Part shown: positions 22,101-58,612 of the stretch, piece by piece | Position numbering within the stretch: the first letter of the stretch is position 1 | How the letters are laid out: every line of letters starts with the position of its first letter | DNA from: Aquila chrysaetos chrysaetos | Taxonomy: Eukaryota > Chordata > Aves > Accipitriformes > Accipitridae | Direction: 5' to 3' | Length of the DNA: 64,000 nucleotides | NCBI RefSeq assembly: GCF_900496995.4 | Contig: NC_044024.1 | Coordinates: forward strand, 310,001 to 374,000 | Program-made: the position numbers and the translations under genes | The notes under the pieces: generated by a model | Seen by the model: only the letters and a program-made list of their open reading frames with translations | Database searches by the model: none | What the model was told of the DNA's origin: nothing

Positions 22101-25100
22101 TGGAGGAACTTTCCCAGGGTCCTGACAGTATTTTGCATAAAAAGGAGGAAAAAAACCAACACAAAACCTTACAAAAATATATCATACTGCAGTTTTTGAA
22201 TGGCTTATACTACAAAAGCCTGACCTACCTGAGAATAAATCTCAATCAGACTAAATGAGTCTGCTTCTTTTGAAAGAAAAGCTTGCTTTCTTTTAAAAGA
22301 AAACAGTCCATGCCCCATCCCAAGAACCTGGCCTACAAGCAAGTGCTGGAGGGATGGGAGGCTTGAGAGATAATTCGCTAACCAACACTCTGTTATCATT
22401 ATGGCTCAAACGTGATTAATTCCTGTGGAATTTGTTGTAATAATATTAGTCTTGGTGACCTCATTTGTTATGCATGTTGCTGCCATTAGGACTCCTATGT
22501 GTTACCTAAAAGATACGGAGCTCGTAGCCACCTGTGCTGTACCTGCGGTGAGGATATCTGGATCTCCTCATCTGCAGTTGCTGCCCAATCCTTCCCCCTT
22601 GGCAGCTGAAGCTGTCAAAGGAGAACCACTGGCAGTGATTTAGATGGTTTGGGCTTCAGGACTGGTTCAATGTCCCAGCATGTTTAAGACTTTGCTTTGC
22701 TACTGCTCCACTCTGGAGCGGAGAAATCCCCTCTTTGTTTAATTTGTCTTTGTTGAGTTTTGGCATTCACTTTTTTGTCATATTTCATCAACCTGGTCAA
22801 ATCTCTCCTCTTTATCCATCTTCTTACTTCTCTCTCCTGACAGATACTGAGGTCTGCTGGCCCGGACTGTTCCTTCCATCCGCAGCATGACTGTTATCTG
22901 AACTTGATTACAAAAAGCAGGAAAGATTAAATCAGTTTAAAATCCTCTTTTGTTTGCAAAATGTATGTGGGACAATCACAACTACTGTCAGAGGTTGCTG
23001 GACTCAGATCATCTACCCAGGGTTTAGAATACTAATCCATTTTCAATGAAGTGACCGCTGCAATTCCCTCTATGCTGTTTAACTCTCATACAATTAAACA
23101 AGGTTTATCTGATACTTAGAGTCAGATTAATGTAATTTTCTTGAGTTCGAGCCCTGCTCCTAAAAGTTACCCACATGCTGTGTGCATCCAGCAAGCCAGC
23201 AGGTCCAGAAGATTCCTGTGTGGGTGCCCAGCGCTGGAGAAGACCTTCTGACCATGCAGTGGCAGGACTCAGGGCTGCTCAGTGCTTCACAAGATCTAGA
23301 CACACACCCTGTAATCTTGTACCTTGAGCTACCTTGATCCCTATGCTCACTTTGCAGGTCTGCCCTATAAGGTTAATAAACACTGACTTCACAGCAGCTG
23401 TAAAACTTCTTTGGTGTCTGCACCATGAGATATATTATTAACGATCAATTTCTTTGTCCTCCCAAGGACATTTTGTCCTGTTCTCTCAATGTGCTCTGCA
23501 AACATGAGTTAATGCATTTCCCTTGGCTTCATTTCATGTCGTTCTTTTTAATTTTAGCTTGTATCTGAAACCAATGGGATGAAACTGTGCAAAAGGACAT
23601 TTAAGATTGAAACCCCGTTAGAAAAATGTCCTAGCAGCAAGATCTGTAAAACCTTGGCAGCATTTCCCAAGGTGAGGGGATGGAAGCCCAGCCGCTTAAA
23701 TCATGTTAATCTGGGCTTGGTATGCAGCTTGGAAATGTGCTGCAGGGAACCAAATTATGCTGGGCTAAAGTGCCTTTCCACTCGTATGAATCTTCCCACC
23801 CCAGATGTGAGGCTTGAAACAGATGCCATGGAGGGCAGACATCTCTTTGTAGTCTCCCTTTTTGAAAATAAAAGACAGTTTGGTTTTCTTCTGCCCTCAC
23901 TTCCCATGAACAACCCCTGGAAGAACTGACTGGTAGAAATATCTAAGAAAACACGAACTAATGTCAAAGCTTGCTGAGAACAAATAATAAATTAGGGAAC
24001 AGCAGCAGAAAAGACAGTCCCTTCCTAATGGCCATCTCCTTGGGAACAGACTCACCCTGTATGAGCCAGGTGTATTCATCAGGAAGGTCAGGTTCTGACT
24101 ACTGCATCTGAGCTGGGAGCTGCCAGCAAAGTGACTGCACACAGAGGATGTGTTCTCAGACTGGAACAAGCAAATAGTTTTAAATAGTGAGTCAAATAGA
24201 GAAAAGGGGGGGGGGCAGGGAACAGAAAACTTGCAGAGTGTGAACTGTATTGAATAAATTACTATGAGTAATTCCTGCTGCACACAAGAGAAGAAAATGA
24301 GCTGTTTAAAAGATTCTAATGTCCTTCAAAACACATAAAAAGTCTTTGTTCTTAAATGCTTTTTCTTTTAGCTTAACAACCCTGAAATGTTTTTACTACT
24401 TTTCCACCAAGTGTGGACCACCCTGGATTTCAGGAATAGTCAGCAATGATTCCTTCCCAATCCCAATACTGCTCCCATGGTATTTGTGTTCCCTACTAAT
24501 AGTGGGAGCAAAGTAGCTTCCTGGGCATTTGAAGAAGAACAACCAAGGCAGCCCTTCAAAACCATTTCATCATCGTATGCAGCCCTGATCCCAGTTGCTT
24601 TAATATCTACAATACTTGAGCATGGCACCACTGATGCTACCTGTGATGCTCGAATGTTGTCACTCTTCTTGGAGAAAAGACTCCTCCTGCTCTCCAGGTG
24701 GCAATCCTTTGCTTGCTGCAGAGACCTAGGATGTCCACCACATCCCATTCCTGCCTGACCTCCTCACACAATGTGCAGTACTTCATCTCTCATGTTCTTG
24801 CTCTTTTGTATCAAAACAACCTTCATAGCAGAACTGATTTTGTGATGATTTAGGCAAGGATATAAATATTACAGTGCTTGAATCATTGTATAGCAGCTGA
24901 TGGTCACTGAAAAAGAAGAAAAAAAGAGCAGCGTAGGAACGCCCAAGTTTTCCTGATGCTTTGGGATGTCCCAGTTGGCAGAGCAGTGTATAAACTACAT
25001 ACTTCCCAGATCACATCCCTCCAGCTTCAGCTGATTCCCAGGCTATGTCTACGCTGCTGAACAAAACATTGCCAGCTTGAGAGCTTAAGCACTGGACTGG

Positions 25101-42050: not shown

Positions 42051-43999
42051 CCCCTCCCTCTCAAGGCCAGATCTTCCACTGTTAGAGATCAGCAATGAAG
42101 TTGAGGGAGGTCTGGTCACTGATACCTGCTGAAGATCCCACTCAGTCTTTCTTCGTGTGGCCTCCCTGTCACGCTTTGATATGGCTGAGAGTCCTTTTGG
42201 GGACGACAGGTTCATTTTTCTTTTACCCCTGTGCTGTCATTAGTGTGCGGTGTCTAACTCTCACTGAAAATCATTTTTACACAGAGAGAGCACATCCCTG
42301 CTTTATTAACATCAGCAACAACAATGCAAACCATTCAGAGCTTGTTAAAAAAACTTTTACTTTTCATGGTACAGCAGAATTTGATGTGGAAGGAGAGTAA
42401 TTGGACCAACCGCACAGACAAGGACCCAGGTGTCTTTATGACTGGTCTGTTGCTAAAACCCACAGATCAGAGTATTTTGGATTAAGAAATGTTAACTCAG
42501 AGCCCTGGCTACATTAAAACTTTTTCACAAGGGTGACAAAATGCTAGGAAGGCCCAGGTCCCTGAACACAGCCTGGCATCCCTCTCTCACGGCTGGTGCC
42601 TGGCTGCTTCATACTGCAGTGGTGCAAGAGCTTGATAGGGATAACAGAAATTGGTTTTAATTGTGTTTAAACCAGTATGTCTTTTGCTAGGTTGATCTTA
42701 AATCAGCTTATTAACACTGTTTTCTAATGCTCAGAAAATACACATGCTTCTTTTATCCATTGCAACATGCTTAGTTTATCTACCATGGTTGAAATTCATT
42801 CTGAATTAGGAGCCAGAACAAAGAACTGTTCACTATCTACATCTCACCAAAGGCCTAATGTGGAGGGCAGAGGGAATATAAGAATTGCAAAGCCTTTGTA
42901 GTAACCCAGTCTAGAAACTGATTTTATCTTTAAAGCTGTAGCTGTTCCCTTGCTGTTAAATCTTATTTCACTCTCTACTGGTTTCAGAGCACGTATATAA
43001 TGTATTTGACATTACCATTTTTTATTTTGTGTTTTTGCATGAAAAATCCTTGCCCTTTCCAGGTATGTTTCTATGTGTGTAATGTTAGATTGGATCCTAT
43101 GACCATCTGTGTAAAAAAGTCACAGAAGTTAGAAATGGAAAAGGATTAATAAATTGCCCACTGTATGATGCTGTTAATATACTTCAGCTGAATTCTACTT
43201 TTCTGTCTGTAATGGTCTACCTTCCAAAATGTAATTAACAAACATATCCATTTTAGTTTTTCATTCTGATACTAAAAATAGCACAGCTGCTTTCTCACAA
43301 ACTAGTGCTGCTGGTCTTGTGAAATTAAAATCAGAGGACTGGGAAGAAATCTAAAAGCACTGTGCTTAAAACACAGCTGTGTCTGGACCTGGCCACAGAG
43401 AGTATGAATGACATTAAAATAGTGTTATGCAGAAGGGGTGTGGTTTAGGAGCCATGATGAATTTTTCTGGGAAAGTTGCATGGTATCAGAATTTCAAATC
43501 TCTTTTTACACTGAAGATCTGAATGGTCAACATCTGAGAAGGACACAGAGCACAGTATTACTTAGCAATACCTTCTCTTGTGTATGTTTTGTTATTTAGT
43601 TTTCTTTAAGTGCATTTCTGCATTTAATGCACACTCTTGTTAAAAGAGTATGGGAACCAATGGCACCTTTTGGTCTTTGTGCAAAAGAATAGTGTGTGTG
43701 TGTGGGGGGATACGTTCACCCTTAAAGGCTGGATTATGCCAGCGTGTGGGAGTGGAAAGCTCTATTTATTGCAGGAGAGGCTTTTTCCGTCTGCTGGAAA
43801 TGAAGCAGAAGGGGGTTAGTTTGACAACAGAAGGGAAAGTTTCACTTCATTCCCTAAGAAGTTCATTGTTTCCCTATGTGGAGTTTGGTTTTCATTTAGC
43901 ATCACGATCCTTACAGTGATTCTGCCTAACAGTGAGCTTTCTGCTGGCAGGCAGAGGTGGGAACTGAAGTTTGCAGGGACAAGAGGCTGCTATGGCTGC

Positions 44000-44016: not shown

Positions 44017-45027
44017 GCAAAAGCGAACACGTACGGCACTGGACTTTGAGCCAGTGCTGGTGGCTGACCTTGTCTCCAACAGAGTCAACGATGAATCCCT
44101 ACATGTATGCCCAGGGGCAGAATTGTACCTCTTTTTCAGACAGGCTTGAAGAGGTGCCTCTTCAGATCTTAGGTCTAGGTAAAAAAAAAATTTATTTTAG
44201 CTATTAGTGGTACAGTAAGAGGTAAAGCCCTGAGCCTATTCTTGCCAATAGAAATTTTGTCTTTGGCATGCACGCAGCCACCAACCTGTGTTAAACAGAG
44301 AGGCCCCGTCCCATGTTCTTTGGGATCTGTCAGACCAGTTACAACTGAAATACTCACATATCTAGAATTAGGCTTTTAGCTGAAGTACCTTACAACACAA
44401 GGACATTAGGGCGTACGTGACTGCTTAAATGCAAAATTACCACAGGGACCCAAATAGAAGGAATTAAATGTGAGGAGCCTGAATAACTTGTTTAAATTTA
44501 GGAGGTTAAAAATGAAAGCTGTGAAGTCTGTTAAATTATCACGCCCTTATCTCTGTCCAATGCAAAATTGCTCCCCTTGCAATGTGTTCTGTGGGTCTTT
44601 GTCTAGAGTTTGTGTGTCTAGAGGGACATCGGTCTTCATGATGTTGTACCAAAATGGCACGGCTAAGTGTTTGCATGGACATTTTGTCAATATTTCAAGC
44701 TACCAATGTAGCTGTATAGCTAAGGCAGAAGGTTAGTCTGAAGCTCTCGGCATCATTTTCAGGTCCACAGAGCTTCAGCCTTTGAATTAATATAGTGGAC
44801 ATTTTCCTCAGCAGAAGGCAGTGCCTTGCTTGTGTGGTTCTCTCTCACCCAAAGAAAAGTGTTGGAGAGGGAAATACAGGAGGGATAATGATGTTTTTTG
44901 CTAACTGGATAAAGCCTCTGAAATTAACAGCAGCTTCAGCCCTTCTTTTCCCTTTTCATTTGCCCAGGATGATGGCACCCCAGCGAAGACATCTGCAACC
45001 CCCGCTGAGAGCTGCAGTGCAGCACTG

Positions 45028-45049
45028 CGTGTATTTGACAAGCTGAGTT
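45028..45049 (+). ncRNA. MIR223: mature miR-223-5p (passenger arm)
   Basis: The 22-nt segment starting cgtgtatttgac and ending gctgagtt agrees with the annotated miR-223-5p of other vertebrates. It lies on the 5' side of the stem. The exact ends follow the known mature form and are not provable from DNA. Confidence 0.9.
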
Positions 45050-45068
45050 CGACACTCAGTGTGCAGAG

Positions 45069-45090
45069 TGTCAGTTTGTCAAATACCCCA
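45069..45090 (+). ncRNA. MIR223: mature miR-223-3p (guide arm)
   Basis: The 22-nt segment starts tgtcagtttgtc and ends aatacccca. Its seed, nucleotides 2-8, is GUCAGUU, the miR-223 seed. It agrees base for base with the mammalian guide strand as I know it, so the target set defined by the seed should be shared. Confidence 0.95.
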
Positions 45091-48000
45091 AGTGAGGCAT
45101 TTGCTGAGCAACGCGGCGGCACACCGAGGGGACCGGTTCCTTCCTCCCACTCGGGCAGGGGCCTTCCTGTCCATATTCTGCTCCTCTCCAAAAACCCAGC
45201 AAGGTATTGAACAACACATCCCATCATTACTGAACACTCGACTCTGATCCTGTGCTGTCAGACTTCCCTTCCACCCCAATTTTGGAAGCGCCTATCACGG
45301 TGGTATTCCTAATGGCAAATCTGTACAGAAGTGGTGCTGGCACAGTTTCTGGGCATTGTAAAGGCAGACAATTGGGCCCTGGCTCCTTATTCTTTGCAGC
45401 CAAAGACAATGCTGTTCTCTTCCACAGCATTAACTAGCCAGCTGTTAATCAATAATCTTGCTCACTTAACAAGGATTCTGGCAACTGTAATCACAACATC
45501 ATGGGTAAGGGCAGCATTATCCATAATACAGAATCTTTTCTTTGGACATGTAGGAATCTTTTTTTTTTTTATTTGAAGTTGGAGGACAAACTAATAAGGC
45601 TGCTGATTAACTTCCCTCTATCCCATTAGCCAGTGAAAAATGCATATTTGCTCAATCTGTTTTTGAATTAGGCCATGGAGTCCATCACTTCTCCTTGAAG
45701 CCTTGTTATTTGGAGAAGACTCCTTGTTTTGGGACAGTTATTCCTAGTCAGCACTTGCAGCAAGGTTGCTTATTGCTTTTCTTGCCTTTCTGCTATTTAG
45801 TTAAAGTAATTCCATGTAAATCATCCCACTTGAAGATCTAATGATTGGTAAGCATTTTTAGTCACTGACTTGTAGCACATCAGATCTGCAACTTGAGGTA
45901 TCTCAGGGTGGGGGGTAATGACAGAGGGAGAGTGCCCAACCCAGTTTGACAAATCAAACTCTCTGAAAGCATTTAGCATTGAAAACTCAGAAACTAAGAA
46001 AAAATCTCAAGACCCTACTGACTTGTTTTAGGACAGTACCACCAGCAAATTTTGCAATGTTTGACAATATTGATAAACTTTAATACTAAGCTTTTGGGCT
46101 TTTTGTTGCAACTATTTCTTGCTAAATATTTTGAAGAAGTTGGAGTTTGTACAAAGCTGGGACTAATGAATGTATAACATTGCCTAAGCAAATTGTGTTC
46201 TGCTTTTTGAATAGGTCCTATCAGTAGGGCTTACTGTGCACTTCTGGACAAACACAGTCCTACTCGTTATGACTCACACTCCCGTGGTCTCTGTCAAGCA
46301 CCTACTTATGACTCACAGACATCACCCTGATCTTTATCACTAAGGTCAGCTTCAAAAGAGAACAAAGTCTATTATTTCAGGGATTGTTTTGTCCCCAGTG
46401 GATCCTAAATGTAGCAGGCAGCTGTGTCAACCCCAGCCCTTTCTGCCATGACAGGCCTCGAGGTTGCAACAGACCCAAACTCTTCTGCACCACAACTAGC
46501 ACCACAGTGCTGGTTTATGCTCTTCATCATTGTTTTCTCATGCATTTCCAGTTCTTGCTTTCAGTAGAGTTTGCGCCTCTGCTTTTTAGATAACTCCACA
46601 CCCCCTGTTCCTTCGAGATGGCTGGGGGGAAGGGGAAGAACATTAACTCCTTCCTCTCTTACAAGCAGAAATACCAAACTATGGTGGGACAAATTTCTCT
46701 GAGACTTCCTCCCCCTTCTCCCTGCTGAGAACAGCAGGTTCAGAAGGGCTCTGAAGGCCAGGGCAAGCCTGGCAAGTGTAAAAGCCAACAGGTCCCTTCC
46801 GTTGTATGTGCACTTCAGTTACTCTGAAGCAAGGGGAGCTGCAAGTCTCATGACATTGTGCTGGACACTAGAAATAGCGTGTTTTTTGGAGGCAGTGTAG
46901 TTTCAGAGCGGAAGCTGAGGTTTCCCTTCTGTGCTGGAGCAGAGCTGGCGCTCGGCAGATGAGTCACATCACTGGGTGAGTGACCAGCGCAAGGAAAGGA
47001 GAAGTTCTCTTGTTTGGCGGTGATACAACAAAGCAAAGCCCTCTGTGACTGTCAGAGGAAAGATGTTCTGTTTCCAACAGGTTTTACTACAAACATGCCA
47101 AAAATATAAATAAAAAAATTATTGCATACTTGCTGCATAGGGAGAAACAACAACCTTGGCACTAGAGAGATGCTTTTGTGTTTCCACTGTTCTGCTGCTT
47201 ATGATCAAAGCTGTTTTGCTGCCCAAACTAGAGGCAGTGCCAATATGGGGTACGTAGCATCTGCTCCAACTGGGACATCTGCTACCCCTGTCTTAACTCC
47301 TGTTGCCTTCTTCCTCTGCAGCTTCTCCCAGGCTTCAGGTCTTCTGAGGAAGTTGCCCAGACCTCCTCAGAGCAGACCAGCGCTGGGAGGAATTGAAAGT
47401 TGGAAAAATCATGGTGTTACATAGTCAGTGAGGGAACTTGGAGCTGAGAGCTTATAATGGCAGCAAATCTTGCATAAAACATTAGGCTAATTGAAAATGA
47501 AGGAAGATGGCACTTGTGGGGCAGGGGGAGGGAGTGCCATGCCCTGTGTTTTGGGCCTGGATCTGCTGATGTGAGGCTGGGGAAGCTGAGAAGTTTTCAG
47601 TTCCCTTCCCACACAGCATCGACCTTGCACCACACGCTTCTGCCCTGCATGAGGATGGTTGCAGCTCCCTGTTCCCCTCATTTCTTTTGTTTTGCACCAC
47701 CTCTGAGATCACTGACACCAGCAGCTGCTGCTCCAGCCCGGTGTCTCCAAGGCCAGCTTCTGGGAGGGTATGCACTAGCTACAGCAAATGCACTGCTGTG
47801 TGGGGTGGATTACCTCACCCCAGGTGCAAAGCAGGAGAGACCCTCACACACACTTCTAATGGTCCCCGCGCTTCTTGCCCTTGGTCAGGGCACAGCTCCC
47901 CTCCTCTCCATCTGGGACGGGGGAGCTGGCCAGGTCTGGGAGCTAAGACACCAGTGCTTGGAGTGGGGCCTGGGACTGCCATCGTCCCTGCGAGGACAGG

Positions 48001-49300
48001 CAGGCCCTGCTGGCTGCTGCCTGCCTCCCCTGGGAAGCGCAGCAGCCTGATGCTGCAGCACAACCATCCCTGCGCATCCATTGCTGTGTTTATGAAACCT
48101 TCATAGTACAGACAGGAGACATTCCTCTCTGATCTTGCCTGATCATCACCTGACATCCCAAAGAAGTGTCATTGTAATTCAGAGCACTAAAGGCAAAAGT
48201 GAGGCTCTTCTTCCCAGTGCTCAGGCCATAAAAAGCTACGTGAACCTGCTGTTAGGCTGCTGACCTGGGAAGGGAAGATCCATGGCAGCTGAGACAAAAG
48301 CCATGTGGGTCCAAGTCAATAGAGGCCTGTACTGATTTAATAAAAGCCAATAACTCTTCCTACAAATTTGCCTTGCTAAAGCCAGGTGGCATGCCCCCTC
48401 CCTGCCCCTGGTCTGCCTGCCAAGCCTGTAGGACAGAGGGATGCTGGCTGTAGGTCTCCGACAGACAGGGAAGGCAGAGCATGGCAGCAGCACCCCGGCA
48501 CATGTAAGATGCAAGTGATTAATACTGAGGAAGCAAACTAGGCTGTTGAGTAACAGAGCGTATTGCAGGAAATCCAGGCACAGCTAAGCACGCAGCCTTG
48601 CTGCTTTTGTAAAAAGGAATTTTTCTTCTATTTTATTTTTGCCAGGGATCCAGGAATGCCCTGGGGTGGGTTTAAGCAGCAGTGACAGATGCCATACTCC
48701 ACAGAAAAGCCTGCACCCCATTAGCACAGGGCTCAGAGTCTGGGGGCTCCTCATCAGGACTGCACAAAATCCAGCGTTAGTGAAAGTGATGGGGTTTGCA
48801 TTACAGACAGTACAGTTCAGCCCTCCTGCTTGAGATGAAGATCTTAGAAATGCAAAGTATGGCCTTGTAGCTCAGGACCCACTTGGCATAAAAGGAGAAG
48901 CCAAAATGCACATTAGGTCATGCGGGCTGCTTATTTTTAAGCTGATCTCATGATTTTTAGAGCAGTCAGCAACAGAAGTACGGCTGATCTAAAAGACACA
49001 TGGGCCAAACAGCTCCAAAGCCTGCAAGCATCAGAAGATGAGGAAGATAATGGCCCCCCCCCCTCTCCAATTTCTTCAGCATACATCTGCAGTGCTTTGT
49101 CACTTCTCCTGCCTTACAGAGGGCTCCTTCAGCTTCAGACACCCTCTTTCAGAGTTGGTATCTCGCTGTGAGCCCTGACGTGCTTCAGCTGAGCAGAGGT
49201 ATTTCTTTCCCCACAGGAGTTCCAGTGCCACTAATGGACCTGGACCCCATCTCTCACCCCTCTGTTCACAAAGCACCCCCCATTGCTCCTGGAGGATTAG

Positions 49301-51233: not shown

Positions 51234-51438
51234 CTAAATGCTTTCATATTCTGATTCCATTGCATTCACCAAGTTCTCATACTCAGGATTTTTCCTGATG
51301 CATATGCTGTCATGGCCGTTGTCTTTCATGGTGAAAGTGTCATTGGATGTTTCAGTCTTAGAATTTGTCTCCTTGTGTAGGTGCTTAACAGGGACTTCCA
51401 CATCAGTCTCCAGTCTTGTGACATCTGCAGTGCTATGG
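51234..51438 (-). CDS. VSIG4: VSIG4 exon 6, cytoplasmic tail and stop
   Basis: 205 nt, acceptor gtctctcttgtttcag, terminating with TAG at 51,236-51,234. It encodes residues 278-344. The tail is hydrophilic, rich in Thr, Ser, Glu and Asp, and ends NPEYENLVNAMESEYESI. The two tyrosines (codons at 51,279-51,281 and 51,246-51,248) sit in YxxL and YxxI, separated by 7 residues. The human long tail ends with similarly spaced tyrosines (NYARL...DYEFL) in my recollection, supporting homology. Confidence 0.86.
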
Positions 51439-54400
51439 CTGAAACAAGAGAGACACTATTGAGAAGAATGACTAAATCAGAAGTCATTTGATTTACATCT
51501 TAGTCAAAGACAAAATGTACCACATATAATCTGTGGAACAGCAAAATTTATATTAATCTAGTGAGGACCTGGGAGGCTCTGAAAGACACTAGAAAGTAAC
51601 ATTAAAAGAATTGCATACACAAAAAGAAGCAATAAACAGTTAACATTGGTACCATAAACTCTCATGGCATTAGCATATTATACTCAGAAGAGTTACCAGC
51701 AGACAGTCTAGCCTTTAGAAAGTAACTACCAGTAATAATTGGGGAAAATGGCAATGTGTGAAGCTACAGATGGCTAAGGTAGGTCTCTGAATAGGAAAGC
51801 AGTATGACAGGATTAAAGGTTGAGATTAGGACAGAGCAGAAGATGTGTTTGTATAATTGTAAGCAAATAGGAATTGCACAAAATAATGCTTGGATAAGCA
51901 CTGGGATGTGTTTCTTAAAAAGAAAGGCATGTATAGAAGGAACTTATCTCAAAAGAAGAGCTGGGAATTCCTGTCCTTTGCCTTGTGAAATAATGGTGGG
52001 AATTTACTACAGAGACCAGTTTTCCCACAGCACCTGCAAGGCAGAGTGAAGGACCCAGAATATCTTTCTTTCATTCTAACATATTAAAGAACAGACTCTT
52101 GCTACCTCCCTCCTGCACCAAAATGTTAATGTCCTCATGCTGCTAAGTAAATGGGCTGTCAAGGTATTCAGGTCCTCCCCCTGCCAAGTCAAAGAAATCT
52201 TTGGCTTTTCACTGAGCAAAGAGGCTTTTTGGAAACAGACATCAGCCCTCAAAGTCTTCTTAACGTCCCAGATGAAAAACTGTACTCACAAAGTGACTTC
52301 ATAGAGAGGTTCTGGGAAAAAAAAAGGGGAATCGAAGATGTGCATCGACATGTTTTATGTCTCACAGAAAAAAAACCCCAGCTGCTTCCAGGTATTCCCA
52401 CCTTCCGGAATCACCCTCCCAGCCTGCCTCTCCCCACAAGGGACGGGCTGGGGCCGATGGGGCCGGGGGGGACGGGGATGGGGACGTCGGGGATGGGGGA
52501 GGGTCGGTCCGTCCGTCCGTCCGTCCGTCCGTCCGTCCGTCCGCCCTGCCCTGCCCCCCCCCCCCCCCCCCCCCCCCCTCGGACCCGCCCCTCCCGCTCG
52601 CGACCCCCCTTTCTCGCCACCGCCCCCGCCCCCTCGGACCCGCCCCTCCCGCCCGCGACCCCCCTTTCTCGCCACCGCCCCGCCCCCGGCCCCGCCCGGC
52701 CCCGCCCGGCCCCGCCCCGGCCCGCCGCTCACCCTCCCGGTTTCGCCGCCGGCGCAGCAGCGCGGCCGGGAGCGCCACGAGCGCGGCCCCGCCCAGCGCG
52801 GCCGCCAGCGCGTAGAGGGACGGGGGCGGCGCGGCGGGCGGGGGACCTGCGGGTGGAGGAGAGAGCGCCGTGAGGGCGGCGGAGGCAGAGGCCCGCCGAG
52901 CCCCCCGCCCCCGGCCGCCCTCGGCGGAGCCCCGGGGCGGGGGGGGGCGTTCGATACCCGCGGGGAACCGGCAACTGCGGCCAAACCCCGGAGAAACCGC
53001 GCAGGCCGGAGCTGCGGTCAGCGGCGGCGCGCCCGGACCCTTTCGGGCAGAAGGGCAAAGCGAACCGCGGGCAGTCGTTGAGCTCCCGGGGGGCGGGGGG
53101 AGCACGGCGGCTCCCGCCCGGGGGAACCCCCGGTGTTTGACAGCCCCGGGGTTCGTTCCCGGCGGCGGCCGGGTTCGGGCCTTCGGTCTGCGGGCGGCGT
53201 TCGCCAACCTGGCCCTCGGCAGCACGGGTCCCCTCACCTGTGGCAACGGGCGGCCCCTCCGAAACGGCATCCCTCCCGGCGGCCTGCTTCGCGGCGGGCG
53301 CATCTGCCAAAGCGTGAGGGTGAATGAGTCGTAACGCTCCCCGGAGCTGCCCTGCGGCCTCGGCAGAGCCGGGGTTGCTCCGCCAAGCAGCAGCGGGGCG
53401 GGCAGCGGTCTCCCGGCTGCCCAGCGCTGGGGGTCACCGGCACAGCTCTCCTGAGCTGGAGGCGACCGCTGCCCTGAAGCTGCCTGCCCTGGTTTGACGA
53501 GTGATGCCGTGAAAAGCCAGGCTCAGGCTTCACAAGCACGCTGCTTTGATTCTCTTGGGTCTGAGGTGGATGGGAAGAAAACACCCACTGGACCTGCTCT
53601 CGGGGTGACGGGCCAGATTTTTATCCCTGACGTGTCATCCTGTGCGTGTTCTGCAGGCAGCCTGTGGCACCCACGTCCCCCCCTCCCCGGCCGTTGCCCC
53701 TGGGGCTCCCTGGCAGCCCTGGCTGACATGTCACGTCTCTGTGCACCAGCACTTGTGGCTGGCTACACCACGGCCAGGGAATGCTTTGGCTTTGTCTTGC
53801 TGGGACTGATCTGGGTTTCCACAGGATTTTCTCACTTCATCTCTCCTATGGTGACTCCCTGGCTGGTCTGGGGGGGGGGGGGGGGGGGGTGTTGCCATCG
53901 GCAGCTGCACCTTAAGGCTCCCTGACACATGGAGCCCCAAGCCAGGCTTCTTGCCCCAGGTGACCTCCCCCTGAAGCTGTGCAACCCCCAGGTTTCCCAG
54001 GCCGTGGTCCCTCTAGCACTGGCTCTGCTGCTGTCCCTGGGGTGGGGCTCTGACCCAGGTACCCACAGCTGAGCACCTGCACCCCGGGGATGGGGTGGAC
54101 TGTTTCTATCCCACCTGCAAAGAGGATCCACAGCCCAAAAGGAATGTCAAGTGGATTTGTCTCGCTCACCTTCTGTCACTCACAGAGTGCCAGGGTTTTG
54201 CACCCCTTCCCCTGCAGCCCAGGTCACTTACCCGTGGGCACTCGCTGGGGCGCACCGCCTCGGGGGGTGAATGGGGGTCTGGTGTGCCTGCTGGTCCCCG
54301 GGCTGGGCTGCTGTGTGACTGGGGACTCTGCGGGAAAGACTGGTCATCAGGCCATTTCCCCCACTCCCTGTCTGCAGTACAAGCCATGTAAGAGCAAGAT

Positions 54401-57400
54401 GTGCCAAGGGCAGGAGCCAGCCTCCTATCCTGCACAGTCCTGAGCCCAGAGGGACACAGGGGACATTTTCCTGACCCCTTCTGAAGCAGGGAGGATGCCA
54501 GCCCCTGTGGTTTCTTCTCTAGGTAGGAAACAAAACGCAGTTCATATTTGGCATTATGTGTCTGATCCTGCTATGAAAGAGGAAACTCCCTGCCTCACTC
54601 CTGTGCAGCAGAGATGAGGAGCTCTAAGCTGTGGACTCACCTCTCACCGTCAGCTGAACGGCATCGCTCTGCTGCACAGCCCTGGCCCCAACCCTGTTTT
54701 CGGCCTCACAGTAGTACTTCCCGGTGTCGGAGGGCTGCAGGCTGTCCCACGCCAGCTCGGCCTGGCTGCTCAGGAGCAGGGCTTTCCCTCCCGGCACGCT
54801 CCTGAACCAGCGGTAGCTGATGGGGGGGGACCCGTTGGCCACACAGGTCAGGCTGGCCCTGGCTCCTGGCGGGAAAGTCAGTCCCGGCTCGCTGGCCCTG
54901 ATGACGGGCTTGGTCGCTGCAACTGGAAGACAAAGCAGATGGGGCCCAGGTCACGCTGGCCCTGGTCGCGGTGGGGAAGGTTCCTCCCCACCTGCCATGG
55001 CAGTTCTTGCTCTGGCTTTCAGTGCTTTCCCAGGAGGAAGAGGGGCACCGCTCTCACGACACCTCTCTGCACAGGTTAAGCTCAGTTAACCCGTGCCTAA
55101 AGCCAGGTTTACACCAGCTATGCCACCGTTGCTGCTGCCGATCACGCAAGTCCTGCTCTGTTGAGTGGGTGCCCCCCTTACAGAAGGACAGTTCTTTCTA
55201 GCGGACACTGAGGACGCTTGGGAAGGGGAGAAAGCAGATTTGGCTAGTACAACGCCCACTTGCTGTCCCACTTGCTACAAGAACCAGAGATGCTGGCTAC
55301 CTGCACAAAACCAAAACCAGATGTGGATGTTATCTCAAGCACCACAGGTTCAAGTGGCCCATGAGCAGATCCAGATTAGGGTGCGTACTAACTGATCCCC
55401 CTTCCCCAGTCCATCCCTACACCTCCATGAGTGGAGAAGAAGGGCTAACACAGCAAGGGAGGAGGATGCCTCAACACCCAGCCTGGATGTGGGTAGACAG
55501 TATGGTGTTAAAGAGTATTCCCACAAGCTGCTGCTTCTCCGGCATGCTCTGTGGATTAGACTGGCTACACAAGAGCAGGGCTTTATTGCTGGATTTACCT
55601 TTGACAACTTTAACCGTAGTGGTCACCTCCTTTGTTATCAAGCTGTTATTTTTAGACCTCCAGATGACTTGACAGGTGTAGTGTCCACTGTCGGGGATTT
55701 CAAGGTTCTCGATTAGGAGTGAGGCGTCCCCTGGGCTGTGCTTTGGGACGCTGACCCGGTCTCGGAACTGAGACAACAAGACATGGTCACCAGAATCGTC
55801 CCTCCGAAAGATGGTAGAGGTGCCATAGTCTCGCTCCATGCTCCAGATGAGCGTTTGCTGTGTGAAACCCTCTGAGGGCATGTAGGTACACGGTAAAGTG
55901 GTGGATCTCATCCATGTGCCCTTGATCTCTTGGACACCAGACAGATCCAGCAGGGCTGCAGGGAACAACAGTTGAAAGGAAGAAATAAGAACAGAGCAGA
56001 CAAGGAGAACATCCTTAGCATAGGTGGGAATCACTAGGAGGTGGAAGCCAGCATGCGGCCACATCTTAGATGTGCTGTAGACGACAGCCAGCTAAACCAG
56101 GGCCTGTCCCCACCTCACTGAGCATAGGGAAGTGAACAGTTGCTTCGACCTCATGGCTATTTTTATTGTTTCTCTCTGGACACTTGCCAGTTCTCAATTC
56201 CTTCTCAGTACAAAGAGGCACAAATCCTGCTCCTGGTGGCAGCATCACAGCTACAGTCTTCACAAAACCTTAAGGAGCATCTCTTATTCCTGCTCTCTAG
56301 CCCCAATCTTTACACCCTACTTCTGCTGCTTGGCTTTCTGCTTACACTTGCACATGATGAGTCAAACAGCAATGGCCTCCCCCCACTGACATGGGATGCT
56401 CTGACAACACGACTTGCAGTGTTGACTTCTACATTCTACATGGGAGGAAGGATGAACAAAGCAAGTTTACTGCTTCACTGCAATTAACAATGAATGCAAC
56501 ATGCTTGCATTCATTAACATCACTATTTTTTTATGCAACTTCCCTGGTGCTCACAGGACCCAGCAGTAGCTGTGTGGGCAGAAGCACTTCTCTTTGCAAC
56601 AGCCTGTCCCAGAGCTAACAGGAGGTGCCAGCTGGGGGAAGGCAAGTATCTGTGGATCTGTGTCCATGAGGACAGCCAAGGGGACTGCTGGGACTGAGCA
56701 TAGTGGAAGCTTGTTTCTGAAATGGAGCTTTGGTTTTCCTTTATCAGATGACTTTGAGAGGGCAGGCACAACTCCATTCTTCAAATCTCACATCCCATTC
56801 AAACACAGCTCCTTGATGTATAAGCTTTTAAAGGTTTTCCATTTCTTTTCTTCCTCTTTTCATAGACTCCCACCAAGAAAAACTAAGAAGGGCGAAAGCT
56901 ATTTAGAAAACTGCTCAGAAATACACTCAAGGCATTTGGTGTGCTCAAGTTCAAGTATGTTTGCTATGCATTGTATTCATCTGGACACAATTTTGTTTAA
57001 ACATCTCTCCTGTATTGTTTTGCATTGCTGTGTGCCGTGAAATAGCTGCCAGTTTCCACTGGTTGCCTGCAGAGCAGCTGCACTCTGTATGTGACCAATT
57101 TCAACATTAGCAGGGATGATTTCAAAGGAGGGCTGATTGGAAGGAATGGGAGAAACTCAGCATTTTTTAAAGAAATATTTCCTCCCAGTGACACTTCTTA
57201 AACTGGGATGTAGTCTTCTAGACAAACAATGTGAATTCTCCCACTGGAGGGAAATAGAGCTGGACCAGGCAAAAACCTGAGGGGCTGTGTTAGAGATTAG
57301 AAGACTGATCAGAAGGATTTGTATTATCTATAATGCATGCTAATGGAAAAAAAAGTTGAACTCTCATATTCTGGCCCATCTGCTAAAACAGCTGAGCATC

Positions 57401-58612
57401 TTCCTTCCTAGCCTGCCAGCACCAGCTGTCCTGGTGGCATGGAAGCACCATGCAGGCAGGAGCCTTTAGAGATCTGCTCTGAAGTACTGGACCTGGAACA
57501 GCAACAGTGGACCAAACACAATCTTTTTGCTTTAGCCTTAGAAGACTTCAGATCTGACCTAGATTTCTTGGATCATACCTGCTTCAACCAGATAAGCACC
57601 CTGCCAAGCACTCAAGTGGGCACAGGAGAAGAGGGGGTGGATTTTGTGGTACACAGCTCATTCTCACAATCTGCCCACTGAGACCACAGCTCCTCTGGGA
57701 AGTGCTTCTTGTAAGTAGCAAATTACCTGAATTTAGCTGGATTTGGCTCTACCCATACCCTCTTACCCCGCTCCCCCTTTCCCCTCCGCCCCAGAAAGGC
57801 ACTGGTTATGTTCAGCTGCATTAACTCACAAGAAGTCGCTTGAAAGACAGATCCCATAAATCTGCAAAGCTGTTTTTTTCTGATGAAATGGGGGACTTAC
57901 TTTAACCCATTTTTCTAAATGTCAGGAGCAATTCTGTGCTTCTGTGTGCAACTTGTTAAAGCACCTTTTTCCTGTCTCCCAAAACTTTCCTCTGCCGGTG
58001 TCAGTGTCGAAAGTGCCCTGGGAGGGGCCATATGCCTCATGGGCATATGAATCAAAGCAAAGATACCAGTGTCACCTCTCCTAATGCACCTAGAGAGTCA
58101 GCAGATCAGGAGAGACCAAACAGAATCATGTGTGTGCCCGCACTTAGTCTCACAATTACAGCTCCTCTTCTTCCCAGGACCACGCTAGCAGACAATGGTG
58201 ATGCATTATTAAACTCTAGAAGAATGCATATTCCAGCTTCACAAAGGCTGTTTTGGAAGCTAACTCACCAGAGCAGGTCCTCTCCAAGGGACTTGAACAA
58301 TCCTCTTTTGTTCTTGCTTTTGGGCATAGGAGCTGACCTTTTGCCCAATACTGGTCCGTTTGTACCAGTCTTAAAAGCACCTTTTTGTATCTGCTACCAA
58401 AAGAGACTTGTGAATTCTCAGGCTCTATTTTTCATACAAGAAACTAAAGACTTTCCACGCTTGACAATTTTTAAAAATTAAGACACTATAATTCAAAAGA
58501 TTTTCCCTACCCTCTTAGTAGTCTGATTTGTTCTTACACATTGAAGTGTTTACTCACCGTTGCAGCTGATGAAAGCCATCACAAACACCACTATCCGCAC
58601 AACTTCTCCCAT
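51234..58612 (-). CDS. VSIG4: VSIG4/CRIg: V-set and C2 immunoglobulin-domain complement receptor (six coding exons)
   Basis: Macrophage surface receptor; in mammals it binds C3b and iC3b, clears opsonised particles, inhibits the alternative-pathway convertase and dampens T cells. Coding exons, minus strand: 58612-58558, 55955-55599, 54922-54641, 52846-52733, 52311-52290, 51438-51234. All introns are GT-AG and phases agree, giving 1,035 nt (344 residues plus stop) against about 399 residues in human. Order: signal peptide (about 1-19); V-set domain with Cys41, Trp56, DSGHYTC at 107-113; C2-type domain with Cys164, Trp176, DTGKYYC at 203-209; short Pro-rich stalk; membrane helix about 241-262; RRRR stop-transfer at 263-266; cytoplasmic tail with Tyr273, Tyr330 and Tyr341. 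Family signature: LPCTY, SSGD-like DSGDH, PGDASL and SPPISYRW all have direct counterparts in mammalian VSIG4. The shorter length comes mainly from the stalk and tail. Neighbour MIR223 converges on it. Expression is not testable here; the gene appears intact. Confidence 0.93.
52290..52311 (-). CDS. VSIG4: VSIG4 exon 5, 22-nt microexon with a tyrosine motif
   Basis: The acceptor is a long pyrimidine run ending in cccag; the donor is ACTTT|GTGAGT. The 22 bases complete Glu270, then encode Pro-Leu-Tyr-Glu-Val-Thr (271-276) and two bases of Phe277. The resulting EPLYEVTF corresponds in position to the EHVYEAAR-type segment just after the basic stop-transfer in human VSIG4, as I recall it. Phase 2+18+2 is exactly what exons 4 and 6 require. 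It is far too short to appear in ordinary open-frame lists. Confidence 0.8.
52507..52542. repeat. (GTCC)9 microsatellite
   Basis: Nine perfect tetranucleotide units in VSIG4 intron 4. It is followed after 11 bases by a C25 run. Confidence 0.95.
52554..52578. repeat. C25 homopolymer
   Basis: Twenty-five uninterrupted C on the plus strand (G25 in the VSIG4 pre-mRNA). It lies in intron 4 between the microsatellite and a tandem duplication. Confidence 0.92.
52579..52683. repeat. Two-copy 55-bp tandem repeat
   Basis: The unit starting tcggacccgcccctcccg occurs at 52,579 and again at 52,634 with only a few differences (gctcgcgacc versus gcccgcgacc, and a length change in the C runs). It is followed by short ggccccgcccggccccgccc repeats up to the exon 4 donor. 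Confidence 0.9.
52733..52846 (-). CDS. VSIG4: VSIG4 exon 4, stalk, membrane helix and stop-transfer
   Basis: 114 nt, acceptor cctccacccgcag, donor GGGAGG|GTGAGC. It encodes Gly232 (completed) to Glu269. A Pro/Ala stalk is followed by the helix SLYALAAALGGAALVALPAA and RRRR. The helix has no charged residue and has a Pro near its cytoplasmic end. The exon is extremely GC-rich because it sits inside a CpG-dense block; the Ala-rich helix partly reflects that. Its phases fit exons 3 and 5 exactly. Confidence 0.88.
53870..53889. repeat. G20 homopolymer
   Basis: Twenty uninterrupted G on the plus strand, in VSIG4 intron 3. It has the opposite polarity to the C runs further left. Confidence 0.92.
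54641..54922 (-). CDS. VSIG4: VSIG4 exon 3, second (C2-type) immunoglobulin domain
   Basis: 282 nt, acceptor tttgtcttccag, donor AGAG|GTGAGT. It encodes residues 138-231 plus the first base of codon 232. Cys164 pairs with Cys209 and Trp176 is the core residue. SPPISYRW at 169-176 is nearly identical to the mammalian SPPISYIW. Presence of this exon means the locus can make the long, two-domain form of CRIg, the form primates have and mice lack. Confidence 0.94.
55599..55955 (-). CDS. VSIG4: VSIG4 exon 2, V-set immunoglobulin domain
   Basis: 357 nt, acceptor gttgttccctgcag, donor AAAG|GTAAAT. It encodes residues 19-137 plus the first base of codon 138. The disulfide pair is Cys41-Cys113. Landmarks include GTWMRSTTLPCTY, IFRRDDSGDH and PGDASLLIENLEI. 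Asn121 is a possible N-glycosylation site (NNS). In human VSIG4 this domain carries the C3b-binding face. Confidence 0.95.
58558..58612 (-). CDS. VSIG4: VSIG4 coding exon 1, signal peptide
   Basis: ATG at 58,612-58,610 in a reasonable context (gagaATGG) opens 18 codons, MGEVVRIVVFVMAFISCN, a hydrophobic signal peptide. One extra base G is completed by exon 2 (G|CC, Ala). The donor is CAACG|GTGAGT. I chose this start because the frame joins the V-set exon in phase and the hydrophobic core follows directly. Intron 1 is about 2.6 kb. Confidence 0.88.

Follow-up and report, generated by a model that had tools for sequence, protein, structure and literature searches.

Tandem tyrosine motifs at the C terminus of VSIG4 and a sister VSIG4 copy with a diverged tail in Aquila chrysaetos chrysaetos

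The cytoplasmic tail of a VSIG4/CRIg-type complement receptor in Aquila chrysaetos chrysaetos ends in 18 residues that hold NPEY, SEYESI and an ITAM-spaced tyrosine pair together. We do not class the pair as an ITAM, because the acidic positions of the ITAM are absent. The chances are about even, in our judgement, that these residues form a dual-use module, which would serve endocytic sorting when unphosphorylated and SH2 docking when phosphorylated. The window (the whole 64,000-nucleotide stretch that was analysed, C21:310001-374000) holds one VSIG4 gene. A sister copy lies just beyond it, and the genome searched comprised 1.23 Gb.

Results

Gene model and locus of VSIG4

The gene in the window is a VSIG4/CRIg-type complement receptor and its gene model is sound. 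Five minus-strand exons are joined by one open frame, with AG acceptors on all five and GT donors on the first four. The exons, a candidate signal-peptide exon and the neighbouring microRNA are as follows.

58558..58612, minus strand: candidate signal-peptide exon (MGEVVRIVVFVMAFISCN), donor score 8 of 9
55599..55955, minus strand: VSIG4 V-set exon, 357 nt, phase 1-1, AG acceptor and GT donor
54641..54922, minus strand: VSIG4 C2-type Ig exon, 282 nt, phase 1-1, AG/GT, open frame
52733..52846, minus strand: stalk and membrane-helix exon, 114 nt, phase 1-1, AG/GT
52290..52311, minus strand: microexon with the membrane-proximal tyrosine (EPLYEVT), 22 nt, AG/GT, phase 1 to 2
51234..51438, minus strand: terminal tail exon including the stop, phase 2, AG acceptor, open to TAG
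45004..45108, plus strand: mir-223 precursor, Rfam RF00664, 104.2 bits (cut-off 57)

The V exon matched PF07686 and the C2 exon matched Ig_3, both over the cut-off. When the V exon was searched against PDB, VSIG4 of human or mouse took the first eight places (E 1.4e-25 to 5e-21), ahead of the next protein at 4.2e-9; 41 of 113 aligned residues were identical to human. The V and C2 Ig exons, one membrane helix and a cytoplasmic tail make up the VSIG4/CRIg architecture. Two candidate signal exons came through the filters, of which 58612-58558 was the better, and a poly-A scan (AATAAA/ATTAAA, 2.7 kb) gave a single AATAAA at 48637.

The mir-223 precursor, the sole gathering-level Rfam match in the window, lies 6.1 kb past the VSIG4 stop on the opposite strand. 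A Cu-oxidase_2 match at C21:431698-431847, 57.7 kb beyond the window, is a candidate HEPH-type exon (a single exon; the search gave three genome matches, with 10 candidates scored). In human, miR-223 lies about 2868 bp from VSIG4 at Xq12 (PMC5133852, in the part available), and one 377-kb interval of Xq12 is given with HEPH, VSIG4 and mir223 (PMC3362572, likewise in part). The window gene thus has mir-223 and HEPH-type neighbours, as at human Xq12.

An earlier note, made from the letters of this DNA, had named the gene VSIG4, and both the V-exon matches in PDB and the mir-223 neighbour bear this out. Its description of an uncharged membrane helix also holds, since the best hydrophobic stretch of 20 residues in the membrane exon has no D, E, K, R or H. 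The tail exon that it drew, 51438-51234, is entered in phase 2 behind an AG acceptor, and the single open frame runs on through it to TAG.

The membrane exon 52733-52846 has a G+C content of 0.86 and encodes an Ala/Leu-rich helix; in the sister copy the G+C content of this exon is 0.465 and its helix is strongly hydrophobic. Within about 250 bases of the window exon there are tracts of poly-C and of TCCG repeats.

Tyrosine motifs of the tail

The terminal exon 51438-51234 (minus strand) translates as HSTADVTRLETDVEVPVKHLHKETNSKTETSNDTFTMKDNGHDSICIRKNPEYENLVNAMESEYESI, followed by the stop. At the tail end, NPEYENLVNAMESEYESI, a YxxL and a YxxI stand seven residues apart, and position -3 is Asn; minus 51281-51237 reads YENLVNAMESEYESI, with TAG directly after at 51236-51234. 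Three overlapping motifs were found by translation and pattern scan.

51237..51281, minus strand: YENL-x7-YESI, loose ITAM pattern
51279..51290, minus strand: NPEY, NPxY-type signal overlapping the first tyrosine
51237..51254, minus strand: SEYESI at the C-terminal end, exact ITIM consensus, also YxxPhi

The spacing of exactly seven and the Asn three residues before the first tyrosine (NPEY) are as the earlier note had read them, and seven lies within the six to eight residues that an ITAM has between its two Yxx[LI]. Both tyrosines carry Glu at +1. The ITAM consensus D/Ex7D/ExxY has acidic residues at -3 and -11 (PMC7026191, in the part available); the window tail has Asn at -3 and His at -11. 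The cytoplasmic SEYESI fits the ITIM pattern [VLIS]xYxx[ILV].

With the Pfam ITAM model PF02189 included, no Pfam family was found on the tail at E up to 10. This model is insensitive here, because it gave one genome-wide match, below the cut-off, with 12 candidates scored, and its result was given no weight. The 24-residue C terminus had no match in PDB, and a protein search of the genome with the tail returned the tail itself and two chance-level matches only (E 3.4 and 4.7). Among relatives sought by pattern, none was confirmed of four matches to the tail exon in viral_contigs, nor of one in viral_contigs and 33 in genome_contigs to the V exon.

The membrane-proximal YEV tyrosine of the 22-nt microexon fits no ITAM, ITIM, NPxY or YxxPhi pattern. 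The window tail ends in ESI (51237-51245) and the sister tail in DTV (C21:377258-377266), both acidic-hydroxyl-aliphatic, which we take to be a possible class III PDZ ligand.

Chance expectation

The 82-residue tail was shuffled 200,000 times; the counts, here and in the six-frame scan, are uncorrected for the choice of the motif after 64 kb were read. The loose ITAM pattern appeared in 237 shuffles (0.0012), NPxY in 1,876, NPxYxx[LI] in 180, the ITIM in 19,855 (about 10%) and two YxxPhi in 20,674. The ITIM/ITSM pattern of PMC11460946 (source available in part) appeared in 29,267, below the limit of 0.25 used in that paper. A six-frame scan of the open stretches of at least 20 residues in the window, 97,315 residues in total, gave the ITAM pattern two times, NPxY four times and the ITIM 134 times, the VSIG4 tail site included. 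By both counts, the unusual features are the tandem spacing and NPEY, not the ITIM match by itself.

The other loose ITAM pattern of the window lies at 22178 (+), YIILQFLNGLYYKSL, and another NPxYxxL, NPKYSDL, at 42483 (-), each in an open stretch.

Comparison with the human tail

The human long tail used here is a presumed sequence; its length of 399, S-311 and T-333 agree with print (PMC10518620 and PMC11172757, in the parts available), an indirect corroboration of the letters. At each of three gap costs a global alignment paired the window tyrosines with human YARL and YEFL; of 1000 shuffles, 22, 8 and 3 scored as high. When the window 18-mer was moved gap-free along this human tail, its score was 28 at YARL/YEFL and no higher than 8 elsewhere; with one gap allowed free of cost, the rival register YQII/YARL came to 20. 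A score of 28 was reached by 517 of 20,000 shuffles that kept the four motif residues fixed. These alignments suggest that the ITAM spacing of VSIG4 may be old, as judged from two sequences, one of them presumed. A local alignment in another register was set aside; its score was reached by 31 of 2000 shuffles and it was unsupported by the global alignments.

The presumed human long tail has two overlapping ITAM-spaced pairs, YQII-x6-YARL and YARL-x7-YEFL, and the idea that the spacing identifies one human pair was rejected on that count. LDYEFL, aligned with SEYESI of the window, presumably fits the ITIM consensus. We take the human tail to have no strict NPxY and NGNYARL to be its NxxYxx[LI] element.

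Window and human VSIG4 share the V and C2 domains, one membrane helix, the membrane-proximal YE and the mir-223/HEPH neighbours. The presumed human tail also has a C-terminal YxxL-x7-YxxL pair and a last tyrosine in ITIM consensus, and differs in the extra YQII-x6-YARL, the lack of NPxY and eight residues past YEFL. A human isoform without the T-333 site is described in the available part of PMC11172757, so part of the human tail is optional.

A sister VSIG4 copy

When the genome was searched with the V exon (19 candidates scored), two matches had E no greater than 0.001. The second, at C21:384362-384715 on the same strand as the window VSIG4, is 60% identical and belongs to a sister VSIG4 at C21:377255-384718, minus strand, 3.3-10.7 kb beyond the window. 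Its exons were located by tblastn and scans.

C21:380667-380554, minus strand: sister membrane exon, 114 nt, length as in the window copy
C21:378608-378587, minus strand: sister microexon (VQVYEVK), 22 nt, length as in the window copy
C21:377447-377255, minus strand: sister terminal exon, phase 2, starts with His

Both copies have V, C2, a 114-nt membrane exon, a 22-nt microexon (YEVxFH) and a phase-2 terminal exon with His first. This matching plan supports the window tail exon, and the view that the terminal exon is an accident was rejected, the sister having the 22-nt microexon and phase-2 terminal exon alike. The sister exons are support rather than proof, because the scans looked for such phases; the sister microexon was the top candidate of its scan, made without a tyrosine requirement. 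A signal-peptide exon scan of the sister copy gave no candidate.

Between the two V exons dS was 1.14 and dN 0.28 (ratio 0.24), so the VSIG4 duplication is old and under constraint. The sister V exon stands slightly closer to human, being identical to it at 47 of 113 residues vs 41 of 113 for the window copy, with 13 vs 7 exclusive matches (p 0.26). The C2 exon with flanking intron is identical at 463 of 470 nt (C21:383436-383906 vs window 54629-55098, that is C21:364629-365098). Beside a V-exon dS of 1.14, this identity marks a gene-conversion tract of recent date. Where the window C2 has eight C, the sister has nine, and the extra C breaks the frame; it may be real damage, an assembly error in the homopolymer, or go with skipping of the exon.

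Four further weak Ig-type genome matches to the C2 exon were seen (E 9.5e-5 to 4.1e-4, 33-47% identity), at the following places.

C12:12904228-12904473: weak Ig-type match to the C2 exon
C6:27630240-27630921: weak Ig-type match to the C2 exon
C7:6822083-6822289: weak Ig-type match to the C2 exon

Divergence of the two tails

The sister tail, CIRKPKDVQVYEVKFHNSRTAASSRCESTDHYEAPISSTENNYVMEPVENKRYEEINTKKNEYVGNTEESVYEVGDTV, has six tyrosines, including YEEI and YEAP, and a pattern scan of it found no ITAM, ITIM or NPxY. YEEI is the preferred Src-family SH2 sequence. The NxxYxx[LI] element of the sister is NKRYEEI, so that this element is in all three tails (window, sister and presumed human), whereas the ITAM spacing is in two. 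The spacing is therefore not a fixed property of VSIG4 in this genome.

In six of seven MAFFT settings both window tyrosines stood on columns with Tyr in the sister and the presumed human tail; in the seventh the first window tyrosine faced a gap in the sister, as it did in a pairwise MAFFT run of window and sister. Pairwise alignments at three gap costs paired the second tyrosine and the microexon tyrosine with sister tyrosines each time, and the first tyrosine at two of the three, with a gap at the other. In a shuffle control, both tyrosines came to stand on all-tyrosine columns for 13 of 300 window tails. Given these mixed outcomes and the shuffle control, the homology of the pair across the tails is likely but not secure on the alignments. 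The sister equivalents are five residues apart in ITAM terms and have Asn and Gly at +3. At none of three gap costs did any of 1000 shuffles reach the whole-tail global score of window and sister.

The steadiest aligned tail tyrosine was the membrane-proximal [LV]YE, paired in all seven MAFFT settings. NNYVMEP and YEEI of the sister aligned with NNYxxEP and YQII of the presumed human tail, and the window has no tyrosine there. In tyrosine layout the sister tail thus appears more like the presumed human one and the window tail more derived. NPEYENL aligned with sister NEYVGN or a gap and never with NKRYEEI, so that the shared NxxYxx[LI] may not be homologous position by position.

The earlier note had named the human pair YARL/YEFL and proposed that its spacing may be conserved. 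The alignments at three gap costs and six of seven MAFFT settings favour this match. The support is moderate, since 13 of 300 shuffled tails did equally well, the first tyrosine met a gap in some of the alignments with the sister alone, and the human sequence is a presumed one. Against the match, human also has YQII-x6-YARL, and the sister lacks the spacing and the +3 aliphatic residues.

Discussion

In the dual-use module that we propose, one tyrosine serves as NPxY, as YxxL and as half of an ITAM, which fits a switch between adaptor and SH2 binding. In the unphosphorylated tail NPEY with YENL and the C-terminal YESI would act as adaptor signals, YxxPhi for AP-2/AP-1 and NPxY for PTB adaptors. 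These would maintain the shuttling of the receptor between the cell surface and endosomes and bring it to phagosomes. Particle binding would cluster the receptor, and Src-family kinases would then phosphorylate one or both tyrosines. Phosphorylation blocks AP-2 binding in signals of the CTLA-4 type; here it would do likewise and open SH2 sites, pYENL perhaps docking Grb2/Nck-type and pYESI SHP- or Syk-type proteins. The tail would then work as an ITAM-like phagocytic tail, not as a consensus ITAM.

Two points speak for the dual-use module: chance seldom yields an NPxY fused to YxxL (180 of 200,000 shuffles), and NxxYxx[LI] is common to the three tails. Against it, the element is short, with its positional homology in doubt, two YxxPhi are common by chance and the presumed human tail lacks a strict NPxY. 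In reviews, CRIg is located on recycling endosomes from which the phagosome receives membrane, and the CRIg signalling mechanism is stated as not known (PMC7905230, in the part available). The alternative that the earlier note allowed, two separate YxxL/I sorting signals, fits this recycling biology at least as well. A further point against the module is that AP-2/clathrin endocytosis is size-limited, as noted for CEACAM3 (PMC7026191, in part); engulfing a bacterium would take more than sorting signals.

Precedents for the dual-use module are MEGF10/Draper and CEACAM3. MEGF10, Draper and CED-1 are like VSIG4 in having NPxY with YxxL or an ITAM in one tail, and MEGF10 and Draper have NPxY plus an ITAM in one phagocytic tail (PMC8092387, in the part available). 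They differ in an EGF/EMI-type ectodomain. To our knowledge, their NPxY and ITAM/YxxL motifs do not share one tyrosine. CEACAM3 and CEACAM4 are, like VSIG4, one-chain Ig phagocyte receptors with their own tandem tyrosine motif. The CEACAM3 motif is also off the ITAM consensus, in a C-terminal Met and not in the acidic positions as in VSIG4; both tyrosines matter for uptake, with SH2 proteins mainly on one. An imperfect ITAM can thus suffice for a one-chain Ig receptor to drive uptake. CEACAM3 differs in binding bacteria directly and not C3b, and the available part of the source mentions no NPxY for it (PMC7026191 for all these points).

The earlier note had thought of a built-in activation motif, and a one-chain ITAM, with both tyrosines phosphorylated by Src kinases, the tandem SH2 of Syk bound and uptake signalled by the receptor itself, now seems unlikely. 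The exact seven-residue spacing, Glu at +1 of both tyrosines, the rarity of the spacing in shuffles, the pairing with the presumed human seven-residue pair and a membrane helix without charge to recruit an adaptor all speak for it; the consensus acidic residues are nevertheless absent, the sister has no such pair, and a review describes the CRIg tail as having neither a canonical ITAM nor an ITIM (PMC13119966, in the part available). We hold ITIM-type inhibition, in which pYESI with or without pYENL would recruit SHP-1/SHP-2 or SHIP1 and dampen macrophage activation, to be improbable to the same degree. SEYESI fits the consensus with the presumed human LDYEFL at the aligned place, VSIG4 stands in a table of inhibitory receptors already described as bearing an ITIM (PMC11460946 Table 1), and the shuffle likelihood for the ITIM/ITSM pattern of that paper is under its limit, but a single ITIM pattern comes easily by chance and the sister has none. 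PMC13119966, for its part, denies a classical ITIM and allows ITIM-like motifs, so that the two papers, as far as available, disagree on an ITIM in the VSIG4 tail.

Still less probable is a pair without special role, its spacing a coincidence in a fast-evolving tail, for example because ancestral tyrosines that stood further apart lost residues between them. The tails of the two copies are highly diverged, the first tyrosine goes unpaired in one MAFFT setting, the pairwise MAFFT run and one gap cost, and shuffled tails sometimes reach the same tyrosine alignment; yet the ITAM pattern is rare in shuffles, and the whole tails are related, a result that does not single out the pair. Since the sister lacks the pattern, a flexible sorting-and-docking site, as in the dual-use module, is more likely than a dedicated on-switch.

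Among the literature matches listed (titles and abstract starts, with subscription journals mostly outside) there was no study of VSIG4 tail evolution or of a duplicated VSIG4, and those on VSIG4 in chicken, fish (ITIM) and bird duplication held no tail comparison. Beyond the tandem spacing, the present analysis adds NPEY, SEYESI, a second ITAM-spaced pair in the presumed human tail and the sister VSIG4. The sister gene is the main gain; it makes the ITAM claim weaker but also open to test, since two sister receptors in one genome, with and without ITAM spacing, allow the signalling question to be put directly by swapping tails. With its recently homogenised C2 exon, the sister pair is also a clean gene-conversion case in an immune receptor. 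It is a rather doubtful but conceivable extension that the two copies form a CRIg pair, with common C3b-type recognition, gene conversion between the C2 exons and tails of ITAM-like plus NPxY vs SH2-docking YEEI type, giving different orders on the same opsonin. If true, these would be paired complement receptors, as activating/inhibitory receptor pairs are elsewhere.
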